Source: Thermosediminibacter oceani DSM 16646 (GTDB taxonomy: Bacteria; Bacillota; Thermosediminibacteria; Thermosediminibacterales; Thermosediminibacteraceae). Taken from it: 64,000 nucleotides of DNA. Shown piece by piece: positions 7,767 to 26,135 of the stretch. Where the stretch lies: contig NC_014377.1 of the NCBI RefSeq assembly GCF_000144645.1, forward strand, positions 1,240,001 to 1,304,000, written 5' to 3'. Each line of letters starts with the position of its first letter. Position 1 is the first letter of the stretch. Below the pieces are notes generated by a model, which was not told where the DNA came from, did no database searches, and saw only the letters and a list, made by a program, of their open reading frames with translations. Made by a program: the position numbers and the translations under genes.

Positions 7767-7789
7767 TTAAAACACTCCCTCTCATAAAA

Positions 7790-8392: not shown

Positions 8393-8463
8393 GCTAACCT
8401 CTCCTTTTTGCCCCCAGAACAGGATTAATCCTCCTCTGGACGCAATTTTTTGGTTTATAAATT

Positions 8464-8500: not shown

Positions 8501-8569
8501 TTTTCTATGAGGGGATATAAAACTATTACCTTTCAAAAAAAATCCTCTAAAAAGTGCCTTTTTGTGCGT

Positions 8570-9451
8570 TTAAAACGATTTTGATGCTTGCCAATCTTCA
8601 TAAGATTTATAATCTATTATTTCGCCTGTTTCCTGATCCCTTCTTTGTGACGGATTCCACCCCTCCACAACAGGAACTAATGTCGATCTGCAATTTGGAT
8701 GAGTATCTTCAGGTATGTTTGGCGCATCATCTAGATCAAAATATTTTCCGTCTAGATTTTGGCATATTTGCGAAGTCCTGTCGTCTAAAGTGGCAGAAAA
8801 AAGAACTTTTTGCACCACACCAGAACTTTTATAAACTTCTTTTTGTGCCTGCGTCATACATCTTGCCATTTCTGTATTGATTATTCTTTTGGCTTCATAA
8901 GCACCTGAACCCATTGTCTGCGCTATATCTTTGCTTAATTTATCAATGGATTTGCCCTGAATCATGCCATCTTCAAGGTTTTTACGGAGGTTTTTCACTA
9001 ATTTTTCTTTGTTGTCCCATATTCGGTCGCTAAAAGTTTTACCTTCAATGGGCATTTTCACTGCTTTTTCAACGAATTCAGGTCTTAAAATAGAATAATC
9101 TATGCTTACATCAACGCCTTTTTCAATAACATTTGCAGTGCGGTAAAAACTTTCTTTATATATGTCTTTCAGTATTTCCGTTGTTTTTTCATCCTCAATT
9201 TGCCCTAATTCTCTAGCCATCTGAGTTAATTTTTTTTGCATTTGTATTAAAACTGCATATCTTTGCTGGTCACTAACACTCAAAACCCCGTCTTTAGCAT
9301 ATTTAGCAAATATCTTCCCTAACTCTCCCCTGATGTCGTTAAGTGCTCTTTTATATGCCTGAAGTATTGGTAAACTGTCTTTATTAGCCTTCCTCTGCAT
9401 TTGAATATGTATTTTTTCTATTTCCTTCTGCAATTGTTTTTGTTTATCCAT
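8570..9451 (-). CDS. Phage minor head protein (SPP1 gp7 / Mu F-like)
   Basis: 293 residues. The N-terminal half is helical and charged. The C-terminal part has the Mu F-like/SPP1 gp7 domain, recognised by INTEMARCMTQAQKEVYKSS, FSATLDDRTSQICQNLDG and EDTHPNCRSTLVPVVEGW (residues 190-260). Proteins of this family are carried in a few copies inside the procapsid and help DNA entry or exit. The gene overlaps the portal gene by eight bases, as in SPP1-type phages, where portal and gp7 interact. The C-terminus continues about 20 residues past the domain. It is a confident family match by motif. Confidence 0.87.
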   Translation of the reverse strand: MDKQKQLQKEIEKIHIQMQRKANKDSLPILQAYKRALNDIRGELGKIFAKYAKDGVLSVSDQQRYAVLIQMQKKLTQMARELGQIEDEKTTEILKDIYKESFYRTANVIEKGVDVSIDYSILRPEFVEKAVKMPIEGKTFSDRIWDNKEKLVKNLRKNLEDGMIQGKSIDKLSKDIAQTMGSGAYEAKRIINTEMARCMTQAQKEVYKSSGVVQKVLFSATLDDRTSQICQNLDGKYFDLDDAPNIPEDTHPNCRSTLVPVVEGWNPSQRRDQETGEIIDYKSYEDWQASKSF

Positions 9452-10721: not shown

Positions 10722-10738
10722 TGTCGCACCACCTTATT

Positions 10739-12475: not shown

Positions 12476-13069
12476 ATTATCACCAACTTTTAAAAAAAGT
12501 TCAGGGAGGGAAGAACCCCTCCCCATAGACGGAATCCTCGCCGTCCCAGGCGGTTTTACTTTTTGGAGGAAGGAGGAGGCAGGAGTCGAACCTGCTAGAA
12601 ACTGCCAAACTTACCCTTATGGCTGCTTGCCGATGTTTTGATGTATAGTAAGGCCCTGTTGCTACCTCGAAGGTTAAAAATTACATAAAAAATTTGTAGA
12701 GATAATCCCACCCCATTTTCTGACAATTCAAAAAAGAAGGGTGGGGGGTAAATTTTCTTAACATTCTCATAATGAATAATATACAAATTACATTTACCAA
12801 TAATTGTAATTGAGTCTATGATAATAAACCTTATCATAGACTCAACGTCCGATAATATAACACTATGTTAAATGATAAAAATTCTCACGATAGCCTTCTA
12901 ATCCTTGATTTTATTGAAACTGTTATATTCTTCCATCATAATTATTAATTATTTTTCATTTATATACAGGTTCGATTGTATATCTATCCATTTTTCTAGT
13001 GTTTAAACTAGATAAAACTCAAATTTTATTCAAATCTGAAATTTATTTTTATGTGAGTTTTTGTAGGTT
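12476..13069. other. 594-base non-coding, structured gap between small and large terminase genes
   Basis: No convincing gene is present. The region contains a perfect 15-pair hairpin (12810-12824 with 12831-12845, loop TAAACC), a GC-rich stem on the minus strand (CCCACCC at about 12740-12750 with GGGTGGG at about 12708-12715), and a tRNA T-arm mimic on the minus strand (12579-12595: GCAGG, loop TTCGACT, CCTGC). The right part (about 12880-13069) is AT-rich with nothing recognised. The position beside terS suggests a packaging site (cos or pac) or a small RNA. This is inference. Confidence 0.5.
12810..12845. repeat. Perfect 15-bp inverted repeat
   Basis: TTGAGTCTATGATAA and TTATCATAGACTCAA are separated by six bases. 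No T-run follows on either strand, so it is not an ordinary terminator. It lies between terS and terL and could be a protein-binding palindrome or an RNA hairpin. Confidence 0.75.
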
Positions 13070-13462
13070 TTATTCATCCAAAACCTCATCAATGAGATCA
13101 TTTAAATCTGCTGCGGAGTCTTTATTTGGATCATTCATATCCACGCTAACTTTTGTTGAAGGTTTGCCCAATTGCCTATCAACCCAGTATTTGAGCAGGT
13201 CTGCTTTAACTTTATCGCTCTGGCTTTTTTCTATTAAGGCCCATATCTTATATAATGCTTCAGGCAATTTGGAATTGATAATCTTCTCTGCCTGAGCTTT
13301 ATTTTCCTGTAAGCGTTCGTCAAGCGCTGCCTTAAATTCAGGATTCTTCAACCAATCATATATCGCTTGTCTGCTTCTCCCTATTTTCTGTGCTATTTCA
13401 GTAATACTCATGCCTGCAACTAAATATTCAATACACAATCGTTTCTGTTCATCTATTATCAT
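13070..13462 (-). CDS. Phage terminase small subunit-like, HTH protein
   Basis: 130 residues. The N-terminal helix-turn-helix reads SITEIAQKIGRSRQAIYDWL (residues 19-38), as in phBC6A51-type DNA-binding proteins and small terminases. It is followed by a long helical region suited to oligomerisation (residues 40-105) and an acidic C-terminal tail (DLNDLIDEVLDE) of the kind that contacts the large subunit. The gene lies one non-coding interval upstream of the large terminase, the expected place. It should recognise the packaging site on the element's DNA. HTH proteins with this architecture are sometimes transcription regulators, so the terminase role depends on gene order. Confidence 0.75.
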   Translation of the reverse strand: MIIDEQKRLCIEYLVAGMSITEIAQKIGRSRQAIYDWLKNPEFKAALDERLQENKAQAEKIINSKLPEALYKIWALIEKSQSDKVKADLLKYWVDRQLGKPSTKVSVDMNDPNKDSAADLNDLIDEVLDE

Positions 13463-13568
13463 TGTTAACTTTCACCACCTTTACAGTTTACATTTATTAT
13501 ATCATACTCCCCAGGGGTATATTACAAATCCATAAAAAAAGCAAAGGATATAAATTCATACCCCCTGC

Positions 13569-13724
13569 CTATATCCATCGAAACAATTTCCACAACAATC
13601 TTCCCTTTATCTTATTTTTAGCCCTTCTCGCTATTTTTTTAGGATCACCGCTTACAATCGCTTCAATATCTTTTGCGACACTAGCAGCACGGTTAATTTT
13701 TCGTAATATCTTTTTCCAGGACAT
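13569..13724 (-). CDS. Small basic phage protein, 51 residues
   Basis: An ATG at 13724 with AGGTGAT seven bases upstream opens a 51-residue frame starting MSWKKILRKINRAAS. It contains KDIEAIVSGDPKKIARRAKN and ends RLLWKLFRWI. Small basic proteins with a similar SGDPKKIAKRA-type core recur in Firmicutes phages and integrative elements, and their function is unknown to me. It follows the 68-residue gene by four bases, so the two are likely translated together. The strong Lys/Arg content suggests nucleic-acid or membrane contact. Confidence 0.6.
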   Translation of the reverse strand: MSWKKILRKINRAASVAKDIEAIVSGDPKKIARRAKNKIKGRLLWKLFRWI

Positions 13725-13728
13725 ATTA

Positions 13729-13935
13729 TCACCTATTATCCAATACTATTATCAATTTTCTAGTATCAATATCAAATACCCTTTCAATAACTGGTCTAAA
13801 ACTTACCCGATCATTAATTGGTATTATAACTGTATTAGAATTTAATAAAGCAAATAATTCATCGCCACTTAAATTTAATTCTTGTATTTTATCATATTTT
13901 TGGGTATCAATTTTAAGTTGAATTTCAACTAACAT
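13729..13935 (-). CDS. Hypothetical phage protein, 68 residues
   Basis: A short acidic/hydrophobic frame (starting MLVEIQLKIDTQKYD, ending KLIIVLDNR) with a GGAGGGGGAGG ribosome binding site just upstream of ATG 13935. No family is recognised. Alternating beta-type residues suggest a small beta-rich fold, and there is no membrane segment or cysteine. It lies between the DHH-like gene and the 51-residue gene and probably shares their transcript. Confidence 0.55.
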   Translation of the reverse strand: MLVEIQLKIDTQKYDKIQELNLSGDELFALLNSNTVIIPINDRVSFRPVIERVFDIDTRKLIIVLDNR

Positions 13936-14004
13936 CCTCCCCCTCCTTTCTGGGAATAAAATTCCACAAAAGAAGGGAATTTCCTGCCATTGTTGAAAAA
14001 TTTT

Positions 14005-14784
14005 TTATACAGCCACGGAATATTTTATTTTGTTTCTGCCCACTAAAGCCGCCGAAAAAATTTTACCGCCAATGGTTGATATTTTGGCGGTTTGAGGTAT
14101 AAAATAATAATAGGGAAGGAATTCTATATCTGGTAATGTTAAATCTAAATCAAATAACTCGCTTAATTCGGCAAGCCTTATATCGCTTGCTAATTTTTTA
14201 TCTTTATCTATCCAAATTTTACCATTTAGGTTATATTTCTTTTTGACTTCTTCAAAGTCTTTAGGTTTGTACCTACTCAAAATTTCCTCAAATTCTTTCA
14301 TTTCAAGCACGTTGAGGTAATGAGCGTGAGAAATGATGTCATTAAAATATTGCGAATAGTAACCTAGATAAAATGAATCTATAGCCAACAAAATCATTTT
14401 GGCTTCTTCGCTTTGGGGTAAAGGTATATCATAGTAACTCCAAATTTCAAGCAATGTGCTTCCTGCATACTTATCGAAGTAATTTTCGTGGCTAATACTA
14501 TCAATTATATTCAAGTTCGCTGCTTCAGGATTATAAAAAGGGGTAACATGATTACCCCAACACTTACCACGTATTAAATCTATATCTACTGCAATCGCTT
14601 CATTAATTGCATTTTCGGTTTTGTAAAGACAATTGAAATCATAAAAGTAATTGATTTTATATCCTTTTACTTTCTCTAGTAATTTACACGAGAATAGCGA
14701 ATCAATATCATTACTTAAACACAAATCAAAATATTTATCGCTTTTCGTCCATTCTGGAAATTTGGCTTTGTATTCTGCTCGCAT
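14005..14784 (-). CDS. DHH phosphoesterase-like phage protein
   Basis: 259 residues. Three stretches recall the metal-binding motifs of DHH-superfamily phosphoesterases in the right order: SNDIDSLFSCKLL (about residue 24), AVDIDLIRG (about residue 64) and GNHVTPF (about residue 76, in place of the DHH motif). A large helical middle part follows and then a C-terminal PQTAKISTIGGKIFSAALVG. Canonical members hydrolyse oligonucleotides or act as exonucleases (RecJ). Here the third motif is altered, so activity is uncertain. The gene has its own GGAGAGA-type ribosome binding site and is separated from the primase gene by a strong terminator. No closer assignment can be made by eye. Confidence 0.45.
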   Translation of the reverse strand: MRAEYKAKFPEWTKSDKYFDLCLSNDIDSLFSCKLLEKVKGYKINYFYDFNCLYKTENAINEAIAVDIDLIRGKCWGNHVTPFYNPEAANLNIIDSISHENYFDKYAGSTLLEIWSYYDIPLPQSEEAKMILLAIDSFYLGYYSQYFNDIISHAHYLNVLEMKEFEEILSRYKPKDFEEVKKKYNLNGKIWIDKDKKLASDIRLAELSELFDLDLTLPDIEFLPYYYFIPQTAKISTIGGKIFSAALVGRNKIKYSVAV

Positions 14785-14826
14785 AGTGCTTCTCTCCTTT
14801 GTTTGTTTTTTTGTTTGATAATAAAA

Positions 14827-14853
14827 AAAGCAAGGGTGAAAATACCCTTGCTT
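14827..14853 (-). terminator. Terminator behind the primase gene
   Basis: An 11-pair stem AAAGCAAGGGT/ACCCTTGCTTT with a five-base loop is followed on the minus strand by a T-run. It ends the primase transcript right at its stop codon and separates it from the DHH-like gene. Confidence 0.85.
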
Positions 14854-15392
14854 TAATTTTCTTCATCTTCTAATATTCCATCGGGGATTTCCCCATATTT
14901 AAAATCAAGGGGATAATTTTGGCTCATGATTACATAGGGATAACCTTTTTCTTTGATGAATAGTTTTCTTTTTAACTTTTTATTTGCTCTCACTTTTTTT
15001 AGATTATACTTTTCGATAACTTCGCCAAGAATCCGCTTTAGGTTTACTTCTTTTTCTTTTCCCGCAAGTTTCAAAATGTCCTTTTCAGTAGCATAACCTT
15101 TTTCATTAATAAAATCCAAAATCAATTTTTCTAAATAAAACGCTGTCCTTTCATTTTTTCTGGGTATTTTTTTGGTTTGCATTTGCGGATATACTCTATT
15201 TGCTTCTTCCTCGCCAAAATTTCGCAAAATCATTTCTCGACTAATACCTTTCATAGTGCAATGTTTTTCTTTCCACGTCATTGCTCTTTTTTCTGCTCGT
15301 TCTATAATGTCCCAACAATAAGAAGGAATTGAGTAAAATGACGTCAAGTTTTTCTGGTTTTTGGTTTTTGCTTGTCTAATCGCTTCCGCAAG
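14853..15392 (-). pseudogene. Primase, C-terminal fragment (split by IS21 copy 1)
   Basis: About 177 codons (from EAIRQAKTKNQ to the stop at 14853) belong to the primase gene whose first 444 codons lie at 17564-18894. When the IS21 copy and one GCAAG duplicate are removed, the frame runs through IPDFLLA-EAIRQAK without any change, giving one protein of about 621 residues. This part is basic and helical (ISREMILRNFGEEEANRVYP, KKVRANKKLKRKLFI) and may be a C-terminal DNA-binding or helicase-interaction region. Within the IS end a GTG could restart translation (MTLAEAIRQ), but no good ribosome binding site is seen. Confidence 0.85.
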
Positions 15393-15496
15393 TGTCACCG
15401 CCGGTGTATAATTGACCCAGGAGCAACGAAAAGGAATTGACCCACCCCCTGGCGAAATATCCCTCTGATACCAGCCAAAAGATCGGAGGGAAATAA

Positions 15497-16726
15497 GTGC
15501 TAGGGAGTGGATCTATTATCATGTTACACGAATTAAGAGCAATGGGCAAGAGCATCCGTGCAATTGCACGAGAAACAGGCCGTTCAAGGAATACGGTAAG
15601 AAAATACTTAAGGGCAGAGGGCATTCCCGAAAGGAAGCCGCATCCCAAAAGAGGATCAAAGCTCGATCCATACAAAGATACCATTCAAGAGCTCATAAAT
15701 CTTGGTATATTCAATTGCGAAGTTATCTACGAAAGAATCAAAGAAGAAGGCTATACCGGCGGCCGCACTATCTTAAGGGACTATGTAAGACAATTTAGAC
15801 CCCCAAAACAGGTTCCTGCCGTATGCCGCTACGAAACCAAGCCCGGCCAGCAGGCCCAGGTCGACTGGGGCGAATACACCTACATTGACGAGGAAACCGG
15901 CGAAATACGTAAGCTTTACGTCTTCGTCATGGTACTGGGTTACTCCAGAGCCATATACGTAGAATTCACAAACCGCTGCGACATACATACCTTCATCCGC
16001 TGCCTGATCCGCGGGTTTGAATACTTCGGCGGAGTGACCGACATAGTCCTTACCGACAGAATGAAGACCGTAATACTTGGCACCGGAGAAAACAGAAAGC
16101 CCATATGGAACTCCATCTTTGAAGACCTGGCTGTAACCCTTGGATTTACCCCTAAAGTGTGCAGAGCACGACGTCCACAGACCAAAGGCAAAGTAGAAAG
16201 CGGAATAGACTTTGTCAAAAGCAACTTCCTGCCGGGTAGGAAGTTCATAAACTACGGTGACTTAAACCACCAGGCAATAGTGTGGTGCGAAAAGAAAAAC
16301 AGGAGGATTCACGGCACCACCGGGGAAAAGCCTATTGACCGCCTGAAGGAAGAAAACCTCAAACCACTCCCTGCCTCTGACAGATACCAAAAATTCCTTG
16401 AAGAAGTAAGGAAAGTCCACAAAGACGGCCTCTTGAGCTTTAACGGCGTAAGATACGGCGTTCCCTGGCAATATAGCGGAAAAGAGGTGGTTGTAAGGGA
16501 CAAAAACGGCAAAATCGAAATCCTCTATGATGGGAAGGTGATAGCAACCCACGAAAAACATTATCGCTCAAGGACCATCGTTTTCCTCAAAGGTCAGTAT
16601 AAGGGTCTAAAAGAAGCCGAAGGCATGTTCTATCCTAGACCGAGGGCTATCAAGTTATCTTCCCTGGAAGTTGAGAAGCGTTCTCTGGGGGTTTACGAAA
16701 GCCTCCTGGAGGTGGGCACAGTATGA
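15497..16726 (+). CDS. istA: IS21 transposase IstA
   Basis: 409 residues, GTG start with GGAGGGAAATAA immediately upstream. The N-terminal HTH reads GKSIRAIARETGRSRNTVRKYL (shown by the segments SIRAIARETGRSRNTV and RKYL, residues 16-38). The rve-type DDE core is recognised by QAQVDWGEYTYID (about residue 114), DIVLTDRMKTVILG and a KGKVESGIDFVKSNFLPG segment carrying the catalytic Glu (about residue 230). It cuts and joins IS21 ends. The stop overlaps the istB start by four bases, the normal coupling in this family. Full length, so probably functional. Confidence 0.95.
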   Translation: MLGSGSIIMLHELRAMGKSIRAIARETGRSRNTVRKYLRAEGIPERKPHPKRGSKLDPYKDTIQELINLGIFNCEVIYERIKEEGYTGGRTILRDYVRQFRPPKQVPAVCRYETKPGQQAQVDWGEYTYIDEETGEIRKLYVFVMVLGYSRAIYVEFTNRCDIHTFIRCLIRGFEYFGGVTDIVLTDRMKTVILGTGENRKPIWNSIFEDLAVTLGFTPKVCRARRPQTKGKVESGIDFVKSNFLPGRKFINYGDLNHQAIVWCEKKNRRIHGTTGEKPIDRLKEENLKPLPASDRYQKFLEEVRKVHKDGLLSFNGVRYGVPWQYSGKEVVVRDKNGKIEILYDGKVIATHEKHYRSRTIVFLKGQYKGLKEAEGMFYPRPRAIKLSSLEVEKRSLGVYESLLEVGTV

Positions 16727-17493
16727 TAGACCTTGAAAAAGCTCGGTCCCACCTTGAAGAACTGGGGCTTTTAAACGCAGCATCTTTCCTTGACGCCCTC
16801 CTTGAAAGAGCTCAACGCCAAAATAGCACGTATCTTGATTTCTTAAATAACCTGCTCGAGGCTGAACTTGCTGAAAGGCAAAGGCGGAATATCGAGGTAA
16901 GGTCAAAACTTGCCCGGCTTCCATACCGCAAGACTCTAACCGAATTTGACTTTGCCTTCCAGCCCAGCATCGATGAAAAACTGATAAAAGAGCTTGCCAC
17001 AATGGCCTTTGTCCACCGGGTAGAAAACGTAATATTTCTTGGCCCGCCTGGAGTAGGGAAGACGCACCTTGCCGTGGCTCTTGCTATAGAAGCCCTATCT
17101 TGTGGTATATCAGTCTACTTCACGAGTCTTTCTAGGCTCATTGAGGACCTCAAAAAGGCATATAAAGAAAGCCGGTTAGAAAGGCGAATGAGGATCTACA
17201 CTAGGCCCAAGCTCCTTGTAATCGATGAAGTAGGCTATCTTCCATTAGATGGCCTTGGCTCGAACCTCTTTTTCCAGCTAATAAGTGCCCGATATGAAAA
17301 GGGGAGCATAATACTTACCAGCAACAAAGGCTTTGGAGAATGGGGGGAGCTCATGGGAGACCCTGTACTTGCTACTGCAGTGTTGGATAGACTATTACAC
17401 CATGCCCACATAATCAACATAAGGGGCAACAGCTACCGCCTAAAGGACAGGCTAAAGACCGGGTTGTATGGTAACCAACATAATAATGCTTAA
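16723..17493 (+). CDS. istB: IS21 helper ATPase IstB
   Basis: 256 residues of the DnaC/IstB AAA+ family. Walker A is LGPPGVGKTHLA (about residue 106), Walker B LLVIDEVGYLPLD (about residue 164) and sensor I region IILTSNKGFGEW (about residue 197). The N-terminal helical part (residues 1-70) is the IstA-interaction region in studied members. IstB assembles on target DNA and selects the insertion site. It overlaps istA by four bases. It differs clearly from the IstB of the second IS21 copy in this window, so the two elements belong to different subgroups. Confidence 0.95.
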   Translation: MIDLEKARSHLEELGLLNAASFLDALLERAQRQNSTYLDFLNNLLEAELAERQRRNIEVRSKLARLPYRKTLTEFDFAFQPSIDEKLIKELATMAFVHRVENVIFLGPPGVGKTHLAVALAIEALSCGISVYFTSLSRLIEDLKKAYKESRLERRMRIYTRPKLLVIDEVGYLPLDGLGSNLFFQLISARYEKGSIILTSNKGFGEWGELMGDPVLATAVLDRLLHHAHIINIRGNSYRLKDRLKTGLYGNQHNNA

Positions 17494-17563
17494 ATTTAAA
17501 AAAAGCCAGGGTGGGTCAATTTAAAATCGCTGAAAATGGGTCAATTTAAATCCGCTATTGACA

Positions 17564-18894
17564 GCAAGAAGAAAATCTGGTATTTGATGTTTTTGAAGTT
17601 TATTAAGAAAGCCCAAAAATGTAAACAATGCGATTCTGTCATTCATTCGTTGCATACTACCACAATCACATATTTTAGTTAAAAACTTTATGCTAGCAAA
17701 GAATATGGCATTATCCTCATCATCTGTAAAATTTTCAGTCAAAACATGGTCTTTAGCATAACCTAAAATTAAATACAGGTCATTAATGTAACGCTTAACC
17801 AATTTGTAAGTTTCAGGATAAGAGTTTTCAAATTCATCGCTTATAATAAATCTCATATTTTCCTCAATAATTTCCTTTTGTTTTTTTTGCCACTCGGTTT
17901 CTTCATACTCAATTTTATACACTTGTCTTAAAAACCGTAAAGCGTCAACCCTGTTTGCATGTTGTATTTTTTCTACACATTGAATTATTGTGCCCTTAAA
18001 GCCACAACCAAAACAATAGTAAATTTGATGTCCTGTATCTTCGCTTATCAAAACTTCCGCCGAAGGTTTTTGGTCGTCATGGAATATGCAATTAAACATT
18101 TTTTTGTTGCCATCAATACCTAAAAATAACTTCAAATCTTGTTGCTTTATGTAATCGTAAACATCATCATGGTTATTGAATTTTACTGGTTTTGGATTTA
18201 TAATATCTTGTAGTGTTTGAATATCTTTATTTTTGATTAAGTCAAAGTGGCTATAATCCTTGTGTGTCAAGGCTTCTGGGTTTTGGTGGGAATGATAAAT
18301 AGTAATATATTTCTTTTTATCATTCCCACTTTTCTCCCTTAACACTTTTATTATGGTCTTAATATCATATCTCACATTATTATCCTCAATAATTTTTACT
18401 AAAAAAGGATTATTAACATCCTTTACATGATAAAATCCTGGTAACCTCATCAATCTTGCAGGATTTTTTACTTGAGGATCAGCGTTAAAGTAATTAATTA
18501 ATAATTCTTCACACTCTCTAAATTCTTCTATGCTTACTCCTTCTTCTATAAGCCAGTATACATGCAACCCATTTTTAGTCTCTATTATGTAACTCGGTTT
18601 AAAATCAAAGTTATGTATTTCTTCAAGTTTAATTTGCTTAAAACTATCAATCATGCTCAAATCTAAATCTTTGCCTGCGTCCAGGTCAATAAACACTGCA
18701 TTAATTTTGTTTATTTCACTGTCTTTAAAGCCTCCACTATTTACGACAAAGTAAATATTAAAACCATCTTCATTGAGCTTTCCTAATTCCTCTTTCAAAT
18801 CTTCAAATTTCCCGCTTTTTTTGATGGCATAGTTTCTTATACAGGAAAAATTTATGAGTGCATTTTTCCCAAAAATGTCATCTAAAAATTTCAT
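17564..18894 (-). pseudogene. Phage primase with PrimPol-like and CHC2 zinc-finger domains, N-terminal part (disrupted)
   Basis: The first 444 codons of a replication primase; the current frame reads 13 extra codons into the IS21 end and stops at 17521. The N-terminal archaeo-eukaryotic PrimPol-like part shows INAVFIDLDAGKD (about residue 64), YIIETKNGLHVYWL (about residue 101) and ARLMRLPGFYHVK (about residue 145). A CHC2-type zinc finger follows: CIFHDDQKPSAEVL...YYCFGCG (about residues 265-293). Together these identify a primase that starts replication of the element. AAGGAGGAA lies nine bases upstream of the ATG. The truncation leaves both recognisable domains intact, so residual function cannot be excluded, but the gene is physically broken. 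Confidence 0.85.
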
Positions 18895-18940
18895 CCAAAT
18901 ATTCCTCCTTTTTTAAGATTTTTTCCTCGTATTAATCTCA

Positions 18941-19111
18941 TTATAAATTTTCATACATTTCTAGCACTTTCTGGAGTTCTGGACTATTTTCAAACACAAA
19001 TACAGTCGCAAAATGGTTTTGTTTATGAGGTTTAAGGTCAACAATTTTAAATCCTTTTTTTACCAGTTTTCTTGCTAGTGCAGGATTCAATATAACTTTT
19101 GTCGGTTTCAT
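18941..19111 (-). CDS. Small hypothetical phage protein, about 56 residues
   Basis: The start at 19111 (MKPTKVILNPALARKLVKKG) has AGGAGGCAAAGA just upstream; a longer frame from 19153 lacks a site. Similar small proteins with an N-terminal V-x-L-x-P-x-L-A-x-x-L basic helix and a C-terminal FVFENSPELQKVL segment are frequent in Firmicutes phage replication regions. No function is known to me. It sits between the 151-residue gene and the primase, with tight spacing. Confidence 0.6.
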   Translation of the reverse strand: MKPTKVILNPALARKLVKKGFKIVDLKPHKQNHFATVFVFENSPELQKVLEMYENL

Positions 19112-19159
19112 ATTCTTTGCCTCCTTTTTTTTATTTTGTATTTGTAAGGCCAACCGGCC

Positions 19160-19615
19160 CTATATAACCCCATCCTGTGCTAAACCTTCCAGGACGCTTT
19201 TTCTCTGTTCAAAATTCAGTCCCGCCCTCAATAGCGCTAAATCCATATACACGTAGTGTTTCAGCATTTCTTCATGTAGCGGCGCTATAAGGTATTCAGA
19301 CAGTATGTAGTCTATCATTTGCAGTTCTTCTTCCAGTGTCCCTATGCTCTCGTCCTCAAATTGTGCAACGTAGAAATTTAACCATTCTGCTATTTCATCC
19401 AGTTCGTCTTTACCGTCAAAAAATATTTCTTCCATCATGGCTTTCTTTTCTTCAAAGCCTTTTTTAAATGCCGCATAATCCGCAACTGAATTTAACAACC
19501 TTTCGATTACAAGTTTCTGATCCTTTAGGCTTAGTCTCCTGATAGCATTTTTGGTTTTTTCGCACATTTCCCTTCCGAATACTTCCCTTACGGTGTCATT
19601 CAGTGTGTTAATCAT
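19160..19615 (-). CDS. Hypothetical phage protein, about 151 residues
   Basis: The start at 19615 (MINTLNDTVREVFG) is preferred because AGGAGAGG lies about eight bases upstream; earlier in-frame starts at 19621 and 19669 are possible. The protein is mostly helical and acidic, with leucine-rich segments (LDEIAEWLNFYVAQFE, EEELQMIDYILSEYLIAP) and no membrane helix. No family is recognised. It follows a terminator (19675-19698) and precedes the primase region. Confidence 0.6.
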   Translation of the reverse strand: MINTLNDTVREVFGREMCEKTKNAIRRLSLKDQKLVIERLLNSVADYAAFKKGFEEKKAMMEEIFFDGKDELDEIAEWLNFYVAQFEDESIGTLEEELQMIDYILSEYLIAPLHEEMLKHYVYMDLALLRAGLNFEQRKSVLEGLAQDGVI

Positions 19616-19674
19616 TAACATCCTCTCCTTTGTTTTTTTTATTTTTTTGTCCAAAAAATAAAAAAGCAAAAGCC

Positions 19675-19698
19675 AGCCATATATTACCTTTTATGGCT
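19675..19698 (-). terminator. Terminator in the early phage region
   Basis: The stem AGCCAT/ATGGCT (extended by weaker pairs) is followed on the minus strand by a GC step and then a T-rich tract near 19640-19665. It divides the small regulatory genes from the 151-residue gene. Confidence 0.55.
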
Positions 19699-19776
19699 AA
19701 CTTTCCCCTCCATTATATATTATATTCTCGAAATTTGAATTTATAAACTTAACTTTATTATATTCTTGTTACAATT

Positions 19777-19935
19777 TTATTTATATACTGTTTTTTCAAG
19801 ATTTGATATACGTATCTCATGATTAGTGAGCATTAATAAGCACTGTTCAATGGTATCTATCATTTTATCCATTCTTTTCATGTGTTCTTTAAGAAACTCT
19901 ATTAACTCATCAATTTTCTTGGCAAATTCATCCAT
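19777..19935 (-). CDS. Small coiled-coil phage protein, 52 residues
   Basis: The ATG at 19935 overlaps the stop of the HTH gene by eight bases, and the HTH gene's GGGGAAGGTGG end supplies the ribosome binding site. The protein starts MDEFAKKIDELIEFLKEH and continues with heptad-like hydrophobic spacing through MKRMDKMIDTIEQCLLML, ending NLEKTVYK. It should form a short coiled coil. The overlap shows translational coupling to the repressor-like gene, so it may act with it, which is inference. Confidence 0.6.
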   Translation of the reverse strand: MDEFAKKIDELIEFLKEHMKRMDKMIDTIEQCLLMLTNHEIRISNLEKTVYK

Positions 19936-20119
19936 TGCCACCTTCCCCTCCCTGCAATATATACTGCTTGTAAGCGATTTCTTTTTCGGGTGAAATGTTG
20001 CACTTATCCCTCTCCCACATACTTAAAAGTGAAACCGAGCAGCCAATACTATTCGCTATCTCCTGTAGAGTAATGTTTTTCTTTTTCCGTGCCATGATAA
20101 ACAAGTCTTTAACGTTCAT
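19928..20119 (-). CDS. Small XRE-type HTH regulator
   Basis: 63 residues, almost entirely a Cro/CI-type helix-turn-helix: ITLQEIANSIGCSVSLLSMW (residues 16-35). GGGAGGGAAGAAG precedes the ATG. Its size is that of a Cro-like or excisionase-like regulator, not a full repressor with an oligomerisation or cleavage domain. It is the only clear lysogeny-type regulator in the island and lies between the AP2/sigma pair and the replication genes. A controlling role over early genes is likely but inferred. Confidence 0.8.
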   Translation of the reverse strand: MNVKDLFIMARKKKNITLQEIANSIGCSVSLLSMWERDKCNISPEKEIAYKQYILQGGEGGNG

Positions 20120-20171
20120 TCTTCTTCCCTCCCCTCTTTTCTCTCCCCTTATTCCCCTGAAAATATCCCTC

Positions 20172-20405
20172 TTATACGTTGTTTAGTTTCTTTTTGCCTA
20201 ATTTTCGAGCCACTTCATCATAGGCCCTCGCCGCTTCGAGGGCCGTGGGGAACACTCCGATATATTGTTGTTTGTTTCCGTTTCGTATCACCGCTCGGTA
20301 TGCTCCGTATTTAGTTTTGCTGACTCCATAATATTTTTGCTCTTCGAGCAATTCTGAAAAAAATAAGTTCCATATCGGATAAGTTTCTATTGAGGATGTA
20401 GTCAA
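20172..20405 (-). CDS. AP2 DNA-binding domain frame, possibly a shifted extension of the sigma-like gene
   Basis: The last 53 of 77 codons make an AP2 domain: YYGVSKTKYGAYRAVIRN with NKQQYIGVFPTALEAARAYD and VARKLGK, the standard YRG and RAYD halves. In bacteria AP2 domains occur mostly in phage homing endonucleases and small phage DNA-binding proteins. The nominal TTG start at 20405 has no ribosome binding site and lies inside the 3' end of the sigma-like gene, which it overlaps by 95 bases in another frame. The frames meet around a run of seven T (20357-20363 on the minus strand). Either a programmed slip makes a sigma-AP2 fusion or an indel has split one gene. An independent start cannot be excluded. 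Confidence 0.7.
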   Translation of the reverse strand: MTTSSIETYPIWNLFFSELLEEQKYYGVSKTKYGAYRAVIRNGNKQQYIGVFPTALEAARAYDEVARKLGKKKLNNV

Positions 20406-21513
20406 GCATCTGTTTTTGATTTGTTGTAACGTTTTGTATAAAATCGTAAAAAGCCTTAAAGCACGTCCAAAATATTTGCTCTTTCTGTTTGGCGGTTATT
20501 TCTGCTTCTTCTTTTTCGAGGATAGAGAAAAGCACTTCGTATTGTGGACGTGGTATTCTGTCAACGAGGATATCGAAAATTGTTTCGTTAATGATGTTTT
20601 TGTTTTTGTGCAATTGCTCGAAGGATATATCTTGTTCGCCTTTTCGGTAGTTTGCTTTTAGAAAATTGATTAAATAACTAAAATAATCAAAATTATTCCC
20701 TGCTACCTCATGGATTTTTGCCACTTCAAGCAGGAAACCGGCAATTTTCTGGTATTTGTCGGTTTTTAATTTTGTCTCGGCTTCAAGATATTGATTCCAG
20801 AGTTCTCGAATACGTTCAACTATAGTGCGCTTTATACTATGGAATTGGTCCCATGTCATGTTTAGTTCCTCGGCTATTTCTGTATCTGTTTTTACACCTG
20901 CCTGGCAAATTGCCTCAAAAACTTCATATTGCTTCGGTGTTAATACATTTTTTGCCACATTCTTAAAAGCATCCCAAAACTTTCTTTCTTTGGTGCTTTC
21001 GCTGCTTCCTTCGGCGAATTCATGTATTTGTTGCCAATCTACATTTGTACAAGCCACGTCTCCTTCTTTGTCTAAATATTCGATGATGGGCTCAAATTCA
21101 ACGAATTGGCGATATCGCATGTTTTTACCATCACGTACACGCTGTTTCCCCTGGATTTTCATGGTTTCGTTGGAGAGTGCGTATTTGATGGATTTCTGGA
21201 AAAAACTGATAATACTTGTTGTATCTTTATATTTCTCTAAATCACATTTTTCTAAACATTCGGTAAATGTAAATAAAGCAATATCGTAAGCCTCATCTGT
21301 TCCGAGAAATTTGCAATACATCGGCATAAGTTCGTTCAGTATTTTCTGCATTTTCCAGTCAATACATGTCCACTTATCGCCGTGAAATTTTATTAAGCTT
21401 CCCAAAACTTCACTTTTATTGCTAGCGTTCTGATATTCTCTAACCCAATCATGGAAAGTTTTGTGTTGGCTTATGTGTTTCACCGCCTTTCTGGTTTTAG
21501 TGAAAAATTTCAA
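20311..21513 (-). CDS. Phage sigma-70-like regulator
   Basis: 400 residues. The first 120 resemble sigma region 2 in layout (DEAYDIALFTFTECLEKCDL, FFQKSIKYALSNETMKI). Residues about 190-240 form a region 4-like helix-turn-helix, LTPKQYEVFEAICQAGVKTD followed by TEIAEELNMTWDQFHSIKRT. A second region 4-like copy may lie near the C-terminus (RPQYEVLFSILEKEEAEI). Such long sigma-like proteins occur in phages and plasmids of clostridia and probably direct RNA polymerase to element promoters. It follows a terminator directly. The final 30 codons overlap the AP2 frame, so the real C-terminus is doubtful. Confidence 0.65.
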   Translation of the reverse strand: MKFFTKTRKAVKHISQHKTFHDWVREYQNASNKSEVLGSLIKFHGDKWTCIDWKMQKILNELMPMYCKFLGTDEAYDIALFTFTECLEKCDLEKYKDTTSIISFFQKSIKYALSNETMKIQGKQRVRDGKNMRYRQFVEFEPIIEYLDKEGDVACTNVDWQQIHEFAEGSSESTKERKFWDAFKNVAKNVLTPKQYEVFEAICQAGVKTDTEIAEELNMTWDQFHSIKRTIVERIRELWNQYLEAETKLKTDKYQKIAGFLLEVAKIHEVAGNNFDYFSYLINFLKANYRKGEQDISFEQLHKNKNIINETIFDILVDRIPRPQYEVLFSILEKEEAEITAKQKEQIFWTCFKAFYDFIQNVTTNQKQMLDYILNRNLSDMELIFFRIARRAKILWSQQN

Positions 21514-21532
21514 TTGAATTCAAAATAAAAAA

Positions 21533-21550
21533 GAGGCATGAAGCCTCCTA
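21533..21550 (-). terminator. Terminator upstream of the sigma-like gene
   Basis: The stem GAGGC/GCCTC with an ATGAA-type loop is followed on the minus strand by six T and an A/T tract. It insulates the sigma-like gene from the zinc-ribbon and integrase side. Confidence 0.65.
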
Positions 21551-21584
21551 AAAAAACACCAAGGTTGTAAAAGTTTTTAGTGAA

Positions 21585-21756
21585 TATGAACTTATACACG
21601 GGCTGTAATACACCCCTCCATATATATTAAAAGACATTTTTTTTGAAAAAATTATCACTTTTTCCTGTAATTATCACATTTTTTACAAACACTTTGTAAC
21701 CCATCTTTTGTATCGGGTTTTTACCCTGTTTATTGCATAATTAAAATGGACAGAGT
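21585..21756 (-). pseudogene. Degenerate zinc-ribbon gene fragment left of IS21 copy 2
   Basis: Read on the minus strand, the region encodes DTKDGLQSVCKKCDNYRKK and then a stop. This is the C-terminal half of a CxxC...CxxC zinc-ribbon protein whose better copy lies at 24357-24510. A stop codon directly upstream in the same frame shows it is broken. The following DNA also repeats the spacer found between the right-hand copies (for example GAACTTATACACGGGCTGTA here against GAACTTGTACACGTGCTGTA at 24316). Confidence 0.6.
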
Positions 21757-21881
21757 TGCAAAATAAAATCCCCACTTTTGCAACTCAAAAATCCCCAAAT
21801 TTGCAAAGGTCATTGCAGGCACCCCTAAAAACCTTTACCCTTGTAGTTAGGGAAATCTTAACTGCAAGGGAGGATTGGAGG

Positions 21882-23405
21882 ATGCTCACAATGACCCATA
21901 TTGATAATATCAGAAAAGCGTTCTTTATGAAAGGGCAAAATATCAGCGAGATAGCCCGGGAATTCCAAAAAGACCGAAAAACTATACGCAAGTATATTTA
22001 TCAAGAAGACTGGAACACCAGGGTTAAAGTTGAAGAAGTTAAACATACCTTCCCAAAACTCGACCCTTTCAAGGCGGATATAGATCAGTGGCTTGAAGAA
22101 GATAAAAAAGCTCGCAAAAAGCAGAGGCATACCGCCAAAAGGATTTATGACAGGCTCTGTGAAAAATACCAAGATAAGTTTAACTGTTCTTACCGCACCG
22201 TAGCAGGCTACGTAGCCATGAGAAAAAAAGAATTGTACCAGGACAACTCATGTCGTCTGCCGCTGGAACATATCCCGGGTGAAGCGCAGGTGGATTTCGG
22301 TGAGGCAGACTTTTACGAAAACGGGACGCTGCATCACGGATTTTATCTGAACCTGTCGTTTCCCTACAGTAACGTAGGATATACCCAGCTTTTCAAGGGA
22401 GAAAACCAGGAATGCCTGTTTCAGGGACTTAAGGACATATTTGAACACTTGGGGGGAGTACCCCGTAAGCTATGGTTTGATAACGCCAGCACTATCGTGA
22501 AACTCTCGAAAAATGGAGAGCGCAAACTAACCGACGCCTTCCTGAGGTTCAAGCAGCACTATGGTTTTGAAGCGGTATTCTGTAACCCTGCTTCCGGCCA
22601 TGAAAAGGGTAATGTGGAAAACAAGGTGGGATACCACCGGCGCAACTTCCTTGTCCCGGTCCCCAGGTTTGAAAAGCTGGAGGATTTTAACCGCGAACTT
22701 TTACGATTGTGCGACCGGGACATGCACCGCGAACACTACCGGAAGGAGGCATCCATAGCCGAACTTTTTAATGAAGACCGTAAGGCTCTGCTTGAGCTGC
22801 CTACCGTTCCTTACGAGGTAGCCGGTTACATAACAGTCAAAACCAACGCCTACGCCAAATTCAGCTTGAACGGTGGAAAGCACCTATACTCTACCGCCCC
22901 CAAATACGCCAACAGCCGGGTGCTTGTAAAGATAACAGCCCATGAGGTCATACCGCTGGATGAGAGCCACCGGGAAATCGTGCGCCACCGGCGGCTTTAC
23001 GGGGACAACAAGCAAGAAAGCATGGACTGGCTGCCATATCTTACCCAGCTTTCCCGCTGTCCGGGAGCCCTTAAGTATTCGGGAATATACAGCATGCTGC
23101 CGGACCCACTCCGGGAATACCTCGACGGCTTAAGCAAAAGTGAGCGCGGCAAAGCGCTCAAGGCTTTGGCTGTGCTTTGTACCAAAAGCAGTTTTGAACA
23201 GGCTGTGAACGCTGTAGCCGAGGCTCTCCTTTACGGAGTGCAGGATTTAGACAGCCTCGTAGCCATCCATAACAGGATAACGGGTATAACCCCGCAGTTG
23301 GAGCCGGTAAAGATTCCGGAAGGGGTTCCTGAACTCACTGCATTCCGCTTCAATGCAGAAGACTATGACAAAGCCTTTCTGAAAGGCGGTGCCAATTTAT
23401 GCTGA
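21882..23405 (+). CDS. istA: IS21 transposase IstA (second type)
   Basis: About 507 residues from ATG 21882, with GGGAGG eight bases upstream; the open frame extends to 21756 but reaches the IS end. The HTH is ISEIAREFQKDRKTIRKYIY (about residue 23). DDE-core stretches are GEAQVDFGEADFYENG (about residue 127), RKLWFDNASTIVKL and NPASGHEKGNVENKVGYHRR with the catalytic Glu (about residue 245). The length matches the longer IstA group and is about 100 residues more than copy 1. The stop overlaps istB by seven bases. Confidence 0.94.
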   Translation: MLTMTHIDNIRKAFFMKGQNISEIAREFQKDRKTIRKYIYQEDWNTRVKVEEVKHTFPKLDPFKADIDQWLEEDKKARKKQRHTAKRIYDRLCEKYQDKFNCSYRTVAGYVAMRKKELYQDNSCRLPLEHIPGEAQVDFGEADFYENGTLHHGFYLNLSFPYSNVGYTQLFKGENQECLFQGLKDIFEHLGGVPRKLWFDNASTIVKLSKNGERKLTDAFLRFKQHYGFEAVFCNPASGHEKGNVENKVGYHRRNFLVPVPRFEKLEDFNRELLRLCDRDMHREHYRKEASIAELFNEDRKALLELPTVPYEVAGYITVKTNAYAKFSLNGGKHLYSTAPKYANSRVLVKITAHEVIPLDESHREIVRHRRLYGDNKQESMDWLPYLTQLSRCPGALKYSGIYSMLPDPLREYLDGLSKSERGKALKALAVLCTKSSFEQAVNAVAEALLYGVQDLDSLVAIHNRITGITPQLEPVKIPEGVPELTAFRFNAEDYDKAFLKGGANLC

Positions 23406-24130
23406 AGGACGAAATCGCCGCCTGCTGTAAAGCATTAAAACTCAGCCGCAATCTAGTGGAAAACTGCGACAAGATCGAGGCTCAAAGCCATGAAGAATAC
23501 CTGCTGAAGCTGCTAAGATTAGAACTGGAGCACAGAGACGCAAGTCGAAAGGACAGGCTTTTGAAAAATGCGGGCTTTTACACGATAAAGACCTTTGCCG
23601 GCTACATATTCGATGAAATCAAACTCCCGCAGGGGCTTACACCGCAGGACCTAAAAGATTGCAAATTTCTCGAAGAAAAGAAAAACCTGATCCTTTACGG
23701 CAACGTGGGAACCGGCAAAACCCATCTTGCCACCGCCATCGGTGTGGAGGCCTGTAAAAAAGGCTACAACGTAAAGTTTTTCCGCACTGCAGCGCTGGTA
23801 AACCGGCTGGTGGAAGCCCGGAAGGGAGGTGAACTTTCCGGGTTACTGAAACAGCTTTCCAAACCAGATCTTCTGATCTGCGACGAATGGGGCTATGTTC
23901 CTTTGGACCGCGAAGGAGCGCAGCTACTTTTTCAGGTGATTTCGGACTGCTATGAACGTCGCAGTGTAGTAATTACCACTAACCTGGAATTCAGCCGCTG
24001 GGCGAGCATTTTCTACGATGAGCAGATGACAGCAGCAATGATTGACCGGCTAATACACCACAGTTACCTATTGATCTTTGATGGTCAAAGCTACCGGATG
24101 AGGCAATCACTCATGAGGCAATTAAGTTAA
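23399..24130 (+). CDS. istB: IS21 helper ATPase IstB (second type)
   Basis: 243 residues. Walker A LYGNVGTGKTHLATAIG (about residue 98), Walker B LLICDEWGYVPLD (about residue 157) and sensor region VVITTNLEFSRWASIF (about residue 193). It is the AAA+ target-selection partner of the adjacent IstA, with which it overlaps by seven bases. The C-terminal IDRLIHHSYLLIFDGQSYR is typical of IstB. The frame is intact. Confidence 0.94.
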   Translation: MLKDEIAACCKALKLSRNLVENCDKIEAQSHEEYLLKLLRLELEHRDASRKDRLLKNAGFYTIKTFAGYIFDEIKLPQGLTPQDLKDCKFLEEKKNLILYGNVGTGKTHLATAIGVEACKKGYNVKFFRTAALVNRLVEARKGGELSGLLKQLSKPDLLICDEWGYVPLDREGAQLLFQVISDCYERRSVVITTNLEFSRWASIFYDEQMTAAMIDRLIHHSYLLIFDGQSYRMRQSLMRQLS

Positions 24131-24194
24131 CATAAAAATTCCCCACCGGTGCCTGGGGAAAAACCTTTGCAAAAATGGGGAATTTCCTCTTGCA

Positions 24195-24600
24195 AAAAAC
24201 ATTTACCCTTCCATAAATATACTAGCATTTTTTTGAGCATTTTTCCTCGATTTTTATGTAATTATTCCAACATTTCTTGCAAACATTATATAATCCATCT
24301 TTGTTTCTTTTGAATGAACTTGTACACGTGCTGTATTATACCCTTCCATAATAATATTAGCATTTTTTTGAGCGTTTTTCCTCGATTTTGCCCAAATTTC
24401 TGCACTTTTTACAAACACTATGTAACCCATCTTTACTATCTTGATTAATGCTAAAATATTTTCTTGTTGCCAAATATACCTTTCCACATTTAGAACAGGT
24501 TTTATACTTACCACGTGCTTTGAAAAACCTCTCTATAAATATTATAACGGAATGAAACTTGTTATTTTTAACGCTTTTTCTCTACTTTTTCACAATTTCT
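24195..24600 (-). repeat. Tandem degenerate zinc-ribbon gene repeats
   Basis: Three further partial copies of one small gene lie here on the minus strand. One (stop at 24357-24359) encodes KTCSKCGKVYLATRKYFSIN with KDGLHSVCKKCRNLGK and ends RSKKC, a CxxC...CxxC zinc ribbon with no clear start codon. A second, to its left, encodes NKDGLYNVCKKCWNNYIKIE and ends CSKKC. A third, near 24555-24600, preserves only FRCRNCEKVEKKR. They share spacer DNA such as GAGCATTTTTCCTCGATTTT. Similar small proteins occur in phage replication regions. These look decayed. Confidence 0.6.
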
Positions 24601-24685
24601 ACAACGAAAAAATAAAAATTCTCTCCCATATATATTATTTACGCACAAAATTGCATTTTTTAACCAATTTTCGCCGAAAAAAATA

Positions 24686-24702
24686 AGAGGCTTAAAGCCT
24701 CT
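24686..24702 (-). terminator. Terminator behind a small open frame near the integrase
   Basis: The palindrome AGAGGCTT/AAGCCTCT is followed on the minus strand by ATTTTTTT. It ends the integrase-proximal transcript. Confidence 0.7.
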
Positions 24703-24814
24703 ACTTTAATTTTTGGTGTATATGATATGTAACATGATATATATCATCATTTATACAGTCATAATCTCTAAAACCCTCATTATGCTTTGCTTTGAGTTTT
24801 TTGGACAAACTCAA
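24701..24814 (-). other. Possible small protein, about 37 codons, start unclear
   Basis: An open frame ending at TAG 24701, directly at the terminator, reads SLSKKLKAKHNEGFRDYDCI and NDDIYHVTYHIHQKLK. It is preceded in frame by a hydrophobic run (GFFIAIFILL) without an ATG. A TTG at 24814 is the only usable start and lacks a ribosome binding site. The hydrophobic head, charged tail and terminator-adjacent stop hint at a small membrane protein or its remnant. Confidence 0.3.
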
Positions 24815-24840
24815 TAAAATAAAAATTGCTATGAAAAATC

Positions 24841-25077
24841 CTAATCAAGTCGTGTGGCAAGATATTGTTGGAGAAAATGCAGTTTATTAATGTCGTCTAT
24901 GAGGGAATTAATATAAGTGATCCTCTCCCGAATCGGCGATTCATCATTTTTTATCATTGTTTCAAATCTTTCCGACACTTCTTTTCCGCAGACAGTTTTG
25001 TATGTTTGCTTTAAAGCCATAAGCCTCCTTTCGAGAATTTTGTTTTCATTAATTTCCAGCGTAAGCATTTCCCCCAT
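24841..25077 (-). CDS. Hypothetical helical phage protein, 78 residues
   Basis: Starts MGEMLTLEINENKILERRLM (the fourth codon, also ATG, is an alternative start) behind a G-rich ribosome binding region. It is charged and helical with coiled-coil potential in its last 35 residues (ERITYINSLIDDINKLHFLQ). No family is recognised. It lies 30 bases downstream of the integrase stop and could be an accessory such as an excisionase-sized factor, but no HTH is visible. Confidence 0.5.
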   Translation of the reverse strand: MGEMLTLEINENKILERRLMALKQTYKTVCGKEVSERFETMIKNDESPIRERITYINSLIDDINKLHFLQQYLATRLD

Positions 25078-25107
25078 ACCCCCTATGATTTTTATTTAAA
25101 AAATTAT

Positions 25108-26079
25108 TCATAAATCAAAATGATTCAAAGGGCTATGCTGCATATAGTCCTTTTTTATGTCTTCATCTAGCAAATCCATATAAGCATCCATCGTAACTTT
25201 GACGTCCGAATGTCCCAGAAGTTTAGAAAGCATAGGGAAATTCCCGCCGTTGAGTATGTAATATCTAGCAAATTGGTTTCTAAGCATGTGTGGTGAAATG
25301 TCTATTCCTACAAGTTTCCCTGCGTCTCTTAATTGTTTTTCGTATGAGTGGACAGTGAGGGGTGTCCCCCTTTTGGTGGGAAAAATTAGATCTGATGAAA
25401 CATACCTTTCCTTATATTTGAGCCAATTCTTCATTTCCTGAAGCATCTTTGGACTTAAATATACTTTTCTTTCTTGCTTGTTTTTTGTGTTTCGCAAGGT
25501 AACTACTCTAAATTTGAGATCAATATCATTGTGAGTAAGAGACAGGGTTTCTTGTATCCTTGCTCCTGTATCAAGCAAAAACTTGAATATAACGTAATTC
25601 CGATAGCCAGTAAACGTTGACTTAACAAAGCAGTTGGCTATTCTCTTTAGATCCTGTTCGGATAAGGGTTTTTTAACTTTTCTTTGTGGTTTAATCTGCT
25701 CGATTTTCGCCACTGGATTTTTAGGTATTTCACCTTCTCCGTAGAGCCAATTAAAGAATACTTTGAGATTCCGCAAGTAGTTTGCTTTTGTAGTTGTAGA
25801 TAGAGGTTGTCCAAAATCTTGACGATTCTCGGGGTTATTTATTTCTTTTTTTGTCTCATCTATAATTACCGTATATTTCCCTCTTTTTCCAAGATAGTCC
25901 AAATACTGCCTAATATGTCCAGTATTTACTTTAGATACTTCTTCAATGCCATATTTCTCTTTTAGGAATTGAGCAAAAAGTCTTAAACTTTGCTCATAAC
26001 TTCCGATTGTTCGTTTTGAGAGATTCTTAGCATTACAATATAACAGAAAATTTTCGATTTGAAATTCGATGTCGGTCAA
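25108..26079 (-). CDS. Tyrosine recombinase / integrase of the island
   Basis: About 323 residues with an N-terminal SAM-like core-binding domain (residues 1-110) and a C-terminal catalytic domain. The catalytic set is complete: Arg in TGARIQE (about residue 174), Lys in RNTKNK (about 199), HMLR (His 264, Arg 267), His in LGHSD (about 290) and the nucleophile Tyr in DAYMD (about 300). The TTG at 26079 is the likely start, with GGGAGGTG upstream; the GTG at 26091 lies inside that site. It is the first gene after spo0A, 135 bases away and in the same direction. It should integrate and excise the island. Confidence 0.9.
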   Translation of the reverse strand: MTDIEFQIENFLLYCNAKNLSKRTIGSYEQSLRLFAQFLKEKYGIEEVSKVNTGHIRQYLDYLGKRGKYTVIIDETKKEINNPENRQDFGQPLSTTTKANYLRNLKVFFNWLYGEGEIPKNPVAKIEQIKPQRKVKKPLSEQDLKRIANCFVKSTFTGYRNYVIFKFLLDTGARIQETLSLTHNDIDLKFRVVTLRNTKNKQERKVYLSPKMLQEMKNWLKYKERYVSSDLIFPTKRGTPLTVHSYEKQLRDAGKLVGIDISPHMLRNQFARYYILNGGNFPMLSKLLGHSDVKVTMDAYMDLLDEDIKKDYMQHSPLNHFDL

Positions 26080-26082
26080 TAA

Positions 26083-26135
26083 AACAAACACCTCCCGTTA
26101 GTTTAGTTCTAGCCAACTAACAAGAGGTGTTTGTT
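26083..26135 (-). promoter_or_regulatory. Long inverted repeat sequestering the integrase ribosome binding site
   Basis: AACAAACACCTC (26083-26094 on the plus strand) pairs perfectly with GAGGTGTTTGTT (26124-26135), and an inner GTTAGTT/AACTAAC pair extends the structure. In the mRNA the 3' arm contains the GGAGGTG ribosome binding site of the integrase, so a folded leader would block translation. The repeat might also be a recombinase-binding or attachment-site element. Confidence 0.65.

Follow-up and report, generated by a model that had tools for sequence, protein, structure and literature searches.

Introduction

Several described systems resemble parts of the locus analyzed here. In phages, homing endonucleases of the HNH-AP2 type carry an AP2 DNA-binding domain at their C-terminus, and a homing-endonuclease origin has been proposed for the plant AP2 factors, as cited in PMC10448857. 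For phage ICP1, the same source describes gp115/gp116, in which AP2 is encoded by the adjoining gene; its authors interpret the pair as an HNH-AP2 gene that a frameshift has inactivated (PMC10448857). Frame changes at homopolymers can also be productive. According to PMC1088944, slippage at runs of A or T yields the fusion proteins of IS elements and the products of dnaX; a large share of genomes avoid runs of nine nucleotides, and shorter runs may slip in some bacteria. Finally, ccpN and infC of Staphylococcus aureus are known to initiate at AUA behind an extended Shine-Dalgarno (PMC13009471).

Here we analyze a prophage locus of Thermosediminibacter oceani DSM 16646 in which a sigma-like gene overlaps a frame encoding an AP2 domain. 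The source genome comprises 2,280,035 bp in one contig, and the window is a stretch of 64,000 nucleotides from it (NC_014377.1, positions 1,240,001 to 1,304,000). All coordinates are window positions. The two frames meet at a run of seven T, and the arrangement may be what is left of a single gene.

The overlap and the point of frame change

The sigma-like open reading frame (ORF), as delimited mechanically, occupies 20311-21513 on the minus strand and encodes 400 aa from TTG 21513. On the same strand, the AP2-frame ORF at 20172..20405 encodes 77 aa from TTG 20405, with the frame open further upstream. The two share 95 nt (20311-20405), the AP2 frame being +1 relative to the sigma frame, and the T7 run at 20357..20363 (minus strand) marks the apparent +1 change of coding frame. 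When re-derived, the coordinates agreed with the preliminary description, which had reported a 95-nt overlap in different frames around this run. The AP2 domain proper spans about 20196-20336, so the sigma ORF covers only about 25 nt of it. In sigma-frame codons, the run happens to spell a canonical -1 heptamer (U UUU UUC). A -1 ribosomal slip was considered as the joining event and rejected, as it leads into the third frame and not the AP2 frame. From 5.3 to 26.1 kb, 12 T runs of at least seven are found in the sigma direction. Within 11,400 nt of prophage coding sequence there are two such T runs and 12 A runs of at least seven, so that the chance of finding an A or T run of seven in a given 95-nt stretch is about 0.1.

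The position of the frame change was estimated with a codon-likelihood switch test trained on 13 prophage genes, on 19 host genes or on both pooled. With all three training sets the likeliest switch falls after codon 20364, the first codon touching the T run, which supports the earlier claim that the frames can be joined around it. With prophage training and a flat prior over 62 possible switch positions, the five codons 20355-20367 around the run hold a posterior of 0.63, against a uniform share of 0.08. Of 480 artificial junctions used as a control, 39% were located to within one codon and 60% to within three. On the 5' side of the run the sigma frame is favored by 17.7-22.4 nats, and the AP2 frame is not coding-like there; over the 15 codons from the run to the sigma stop the AP2 frame is favored by just 2.1-3.0 nats, and past the sigma stop by 8.7-20.9 nats. 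These preferences of the three segments place the beginning of AP2-frame coding at the T run or just after it. The same codon signal is expected from a slip or indel at the run and from a start at TTG 20351.

The AP2 domain and its possible start

The Pfam AP2 domain (PF00847) matches residues 24-70 of the AP2 ORF, corresponding to 20196..20336 on the minus strand, with an E-value of 7.5e-5 and a score of 23.4, below the gathering score of 33.3. Other comparisons agree: phrog_99, an HNH endonuclease family, matches the AP2 part at E 1.2e-9, and against a local profile made of 11 AP2 domains taken from other genomes this part scores 25.9 bits, compared with 7.7 for the best of 1000 shuffles. 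A single-sequence model of the joined protein has a mean pLDDT of only 46.8 and lends weak support; it places strands at 383-386, 392-398 and 401-408 and a helix at 411-424, all with low pLDDT, and its top PDB match is AtERF1 (1gcc; probability 1.00, E 0.024). Together, profiles and model make AP2 a firm prediction. The sigma-like assignment that the preliminary description had set beside it also finds profile matches, weak but recurrent.

Within the overlap, TTG 20405 and TTG 20351 are the only ATG, GTG or TTG codons in the AP2 frame. The latter (20349..20351, minus strand) is the sole such codon after the T run and before the AP2 domain, and no Shine-Dalgarno precedes it. Duplex energies with the anti-Shine-Dalgarno are +0.1 kcal/mol for TTG 20405 and -3.3 kcal/mol for TTG 20351, in keeping with the previous observation that the AP2 frame lacks a ribosome binding site. 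Nine of 12 other prophage genes give -7.0 to -16.1 kcal/mol at their listed starts. The exceptions are the integrase (-1.2 kcal/mol), gene 24841 (-2.9 kcal/mol) and the TTG of gene 19160 (-3.9 kcal/mol). In gene 19160 a downstream ATG at 19615 gives -10.2 kcal/mol, and the listed starts of the exceptional genes may be misplaced.

A Pfam AP2 search of 398 genomes of the phylum (E <= 0.001) gave matches in 15, the T. oceani genome itself not among them. The AP2 frame could be read in 12 of the 15 loci (all except L069, L072 and L075), and in all of these AP2 forms the C-terminal part of open frames of 157-299 codons; a stand-alone AP2 domain of 59-77 aa was found in none of the 12. The N-terminal parts, judged by eye, are HNH-like or zinc-finger-like, and none is sigma-like.

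The sigma-like protein and its start

The sigma70-ECF profile TIGR02937 matches residues 83-237 of the 400-aa ORF with an E-value of 5.9e-4, at a score of 19.5 bits that is far below the curated cut-off of 42.9. Two families of phage sigma factors match the ORF as well, phrog_1740 at E 6.1e-4 and phrog_351 at E 0.024 (0.006 with the N-terminal part alone); a Pfam search of the ORF returned no match. The core from sigma region 2 to region 4, in its first copy, was assigned to 20803..21267 (minus strand) from the TIGR02937 residues and the model. That model, a single-sequence AlphaFold prediction, is poor (mean pLDDT 49.5) and gives weak support. Sigma entries nonetheless take ranks 1-4 of its 109 PDB matches, the best at E 0.15 and none at or below 0.001, and about 32 of the best 50 of the 109 are sigma or holoenzyme chains to judge by their titles. 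The match to sigma region 4 in 3vfz has a probability of 0.95 and an rmsd of 1.7 A, with E 3.5. Given a subthreshold TIGR02937 score and a poor model whose matches are headed by sigma structures, the long ORF is likely, not firmly, sigma-like. If the intact protein worked, binding of core RNA polymerase and promoter recognition would be predicted for it.

Near the C-terminus, a weak second region-4-like repeat was detected by Smith-Waterman comparison (20320..20484, minus strand). Its score against the first copy is 42, which 6 of 1000 shuffles reach. Beyond the T run, the frame-0 tail and the AP2-frame tail fit the repeat about equally well (42 vs 40); the frame-0 tail IARRAKILWSQ can be aligned with IVERIRELWNQ in the first region 4, an alignment equaled by 17 of 1000 shuffles. 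The second repeat seems to break off before its recognition helix.

The mechanical start of the gene, TTG 21513, has no Shine-Dalgarno (-0.7 kcal/mol). Further in, the ten-base stretch AAGGCGGTGA at 21480-21489 (minus strand) forms an extended Shine-Dalgarno with a duplex energy of -13.1 kcal/mol, 5' of ATA 21474 (21472..21474, minus strand), a probable initiation codon or mutated start. The first ATG, GTG and TTG codons have no good signal, and no other credible start was found for the gene. It thus seems to begin at AUA behind the extended Shine-Dalgarno, a feature that the preliminary description had missed. From this likely start to the TAA at 20311-20313 the sigma-like protein has 387 codons (20311..21474, minus strand). 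ATA 21474 may serve as a start that keeps expression low, or it may be an ATG that has mutated; if the latter, it would be a further sign of decay. A terminator-like hairpin with a T tail lies at 21531-21549 (minus strand), between an IS21-type element and the sigma-like gene; the region has three terminator-like sites, against 1.3 expected.

The prophage

The locus is held in a defective prophage at 5337..26091 on the minus strand, a low-GC remnant of about 20.8 kb that runs from a capsid and terminase module to an integrase. Its genes include the integrase (25108-26091), the sigma-like gene, AP2, an HTH protein, a DUF5659 protein and a primase, and, for packaging and the head, TerS, TerL, an SPP1-type portal, a minor head protein, a scaffold and the major capsid protein. 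The prophage, with its capsid and packaging module at 5337-12526 (minus strand), ends at a DDE transposase. At this left end, the stretch from the capsid gene to the host gene (4083-5237) holds the transposase, and no tail genes were seen in it. An IS21-type insertion with an IstA/IstB pair (15497-17493) splits the primase gene (14853-18894, minus strand), whose two parts align with successive segments of phrog_25531 and, likewise, of primases that are intact elsewhere. A second IS21-type insertion (21756-24130) stands before the sigma-like gene. In a prophage so damaged, a frameshifted gene is unsurprising. Several of the prophage's genes are intact, however, so decay of the sigma-like gene is not proven.

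The protein at 14005-14784 (minus strand) has no Pfam match and has a relative at L026:16302-17087; both lie between primase and terminase. That relative belongs to the start of a related prophage in a genome of the same class (L026:11378-17984, genome G022), which consists of an integrase, a DUF5659-like gene, an intact primase, the relative itself and a TerS-like gene, followed by an IS21-type element. No sigma-like or AP2 gene was found in this segment. In the host region of the window, an OLE RNA at 33563-34178 (minus strand) gives a full-length Rfam match of 535 bits.

Search for relatives

The sigma-like protein was searched for at several taxonomic levels. Among 61 relatives it was found once, as itself. 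Of 26 genomes of the class, two gave matches, itself and a chance-level match, L003 (E 0.011), which was rejected as an unrelated ORF of 125 aa. Three of 398 phylum genomes gave matches, itself and two weak ones: L029, discarded because the match falls inside an unrelated 536-aa ORF, and L028, a sigma-like ORF of only 127 aa that lacks AP2. There was none in the 19 genomes of the order of G253, and the counts in phages, plasmids, viral contigs and genome contigs were all zero. The joined protein, searched in 22 genomes of the order, matched two, itself and the same chance-level ORF. With the AP2 ORF as query, phages gave three records, HNH or unannotated; plasmids gave none and viral contigs no relatives; and the phylum gave three of 398 genomes, the two others encoding HNH-like proteins with AP2.

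Related prophages can also be approached through the primase. At E <= 1e-11, related primases occur in 12 of the 398 phylum genomes, the genome's own included, and nine loci were taken from eight of the 11 others (G022, G349, G324, G080, G253, G108, G069 and G076; G112, G314 and G339 were omitted). By phmmer, neither a sigma-like relative nor AP2 was found in these nine loci. When ten window proteins were compared by phmmer with the ORFs of 13 loci, relatives of the integrase, the DUF5659 protein and the primase were recovered; the sole sigma-like relative was again L028 (E 9.3e-6), a locus included through the earlier sigma match and not through primase, and there was no AP2 in any of the 13. 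Scans with the primase alignment gave two distant loci in viral contigs and none in genome contigs.

Across relatives, class, phylum, phages, plasmids, and viral and genome contigs, the searches recovered no homologue in which the sigma-like part is joined to AP2. A literature search for a sigma-AP2 fusion gave nothing on point among the matches listed, which is not proof of absence. The combination was not seen elsewhere in the collections searched, and the domain pair is an unusual one.

Discussion

Our best reading, to which we assign a probability of roughly 0.48, is that the prophage is decaying and that an indel at the T run has divided what was one sigma-like/AP2 gene. What speaks for it is the codon switch at 20364, an AP2 frame with no Shine-Dalgarno, the C-terminal position of AP2 in the phylum loci that were read, the broken state of the prophage and the published parallel of ICP1 gp115/gp116 (PMC10448857). 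The ancestral open frame would have encoded a phage sigma-like factor made up of regions 2 and 4 and a weak second part resembling region 4, followed at its end by the type of AP2 domain that phage HNH homing endonucleases carry C-terminally. A change of length in the T run at 20357-20363 would then have put the AP2 part into the +1 frame. The present product is probably a sigma-like protein that lacks AP2 and ends, past the run, in a short unrelated tail; it is probably translated weakly owing to the AUA start. In the intact protein, if functional, RNA polymerase would be bound by the sigma core, while AP2 would provide a second DNA contact at phage promoters. We infer the past fused frame, the length change itself and any activity, and the past fusion from one sequence, because no sigma-AP2 homologue, intact or not, was found. 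As no such fusion turned up anywhere searched, a fusion is also a priori unlikely. Two sequence features weigh against the reading as well: over the 15 codons from the run to the sigma stop the AP2 frame has an advantage of just 2.1-3.0 nats, and the frame-0 tail, with its likeness to the first region 4, does not look plainly random.

The T-run junction can be explained in other ways. Two separate genes come next, as an unlikely alternative: the sigma-like gene would end in frame 0 at 20311, and an AP2 protein of 59 aa would start at TTG 20351, with no Shine-Dalgarno or by weak coupled re-initiation. This codon lies just past the frame change and ahead of the AP2 domain, the codon statistics are alike for a start there and for a slip a few bases away, and the frame-0 tail is similar to the final helix of sigma region 4. 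Re-initiation, however, would require moving back by about 40 nt from the sigma stop, the duplex energy of the TTG falls short of the range seen in most of the other prophage genes, and the AP2 loci read in the phylum hold no stand-alone domain. Alternatively, AP2 could be the relic of a downstream HNH-AP2 homing endonuclease, a deletion having taken the HNH part together with the 3' end of the sigma-like gene, with no fusion ever formed. The best profile matches of the AP2 part are indeed HNH endonucleases, the AP2 proteins of the phylum have N-terminal parts of the HNH-like or zinc-finger-like kind, the second region-4-like repeat seems to lack its recognition helix, and genes have been lost from the prophage. 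Against such a deletion, which we also judge improbable, the ORFs tested show no HNH match except through the AP2 part itself, and the junction sits on a T7 run, a typical indel site that a deletion does not need.

The remaining explanations keep both frames in use or dispense with the frame change. Programmed recoding, in which RNA polymerase slippage or a +1 ribosomal slip at T7 would yield a minor sigma-AP2 fusion, would account for a homopolymer at the frame change and for an AP2 frame that keeps coding-like statistics and a complete domain, and slippage at A or T runs is known from IS fusions and dnaX (PMC1088944). We nevertheless give it little credence. The run of seven is shorter than the nine-nucleotide avoidance length given in that source, the -1 heptamer leads to the wrong frame, and there is neither a conserved site nor a relative in which to see one. 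RNA folding by the run is no better than in shuffled sequences (z 0.17 and -0.30 downstream, 0.23 upstream), a comparison that bears on ribosomal frameshifting, as transcriptional slippage needs no structure; for the ribosomal route, neither a slippery signal for the right frame nor a stimulatory structure was found. More specifically, the phage factor might exist in two forms, sigma-like without AP2 and a minority AP2 form made by slippage at T7, the whole kept low by the AUA start as a small stock in the lysogen; we regard this as very unlikely. The preliminary description had proposed that the locus yields a sigma-AP2 fusion protein. This is not supported, as the searches gave no homologue with the two parts in a single frame, and the natural indel that it named as an alternative is the better fit to the wrecked prophage. 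The other indel it mentioned, an error in the sequenced length of the T run with the real frame continuous, is least credible. Homopolymer runs are a classic error of 454 sequencing. That technology supplied 25.4x of the coverage, but the run has just seven T, and the genome was finished with 34.3x of Illumina data, used for polishing, and 5.3x of Sanger data, to a stated error rate of less than 1 in 100,000 (PMC3035372).

For annotation, the main lesson of the locus in its present state is that it may be a mistake to list the AP2 ORF as a separate gene, and likewise to treat the sigma-like ORF as complete.

Comparison with known systems

Each feature of the locus has a described counterpart that matches it in part. 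The likely start resembles those of AUA-initiated ccpN and infC in S. aureus in having AUA after an extended Shine-Dalgarno (PMC13009471); here, in contrast, the gene is a phage gene in a single genome, and its predicted start is perhaps simply a mutated ATG. With slippage genes at A or T runs, such as those of IS elements, Thermus dnaX and mxiE (PMC1088944), it shares the meeting of two frames over a homopolymer, but the run is of seven rather than nine or more, there is no conservation, and the case is known from sequence alone. The sigma-70 factors of phages and mobile elements (phrog_1740, phrog_351, TIGR02937) are resembled in a weak region 2 and region 4 signal, in order, and in residence on a mobile element; SigN/ZpdN of plasmid pBS32 may be compared with them. 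Unlike the known sigma-70 factors, the protein has about 150 extra C-terminal residues, an adjoining AP2, an apparent AUA start and a subthreshold TIGR02937 score. ICP1 gp115/gp116 offers the parallel of an AP2 part read as cut off by a frameshift (PMC10448857). The AP2 itself is of the same kind as in the phage HNH-AP2 homing endonucleases (phrog_99, phrog_953; ICP1 gp59/gp209), phrog_99 giving the match noted above, but they carry an HNH nuclease domain N-terminal to AP2, whereas here a sigma-like protein stands 5' of AP2. The fused gene, had it once been functional, would have joined a sigma-like factor to a sequence-specific domain borrowed from those homing endonucleases.
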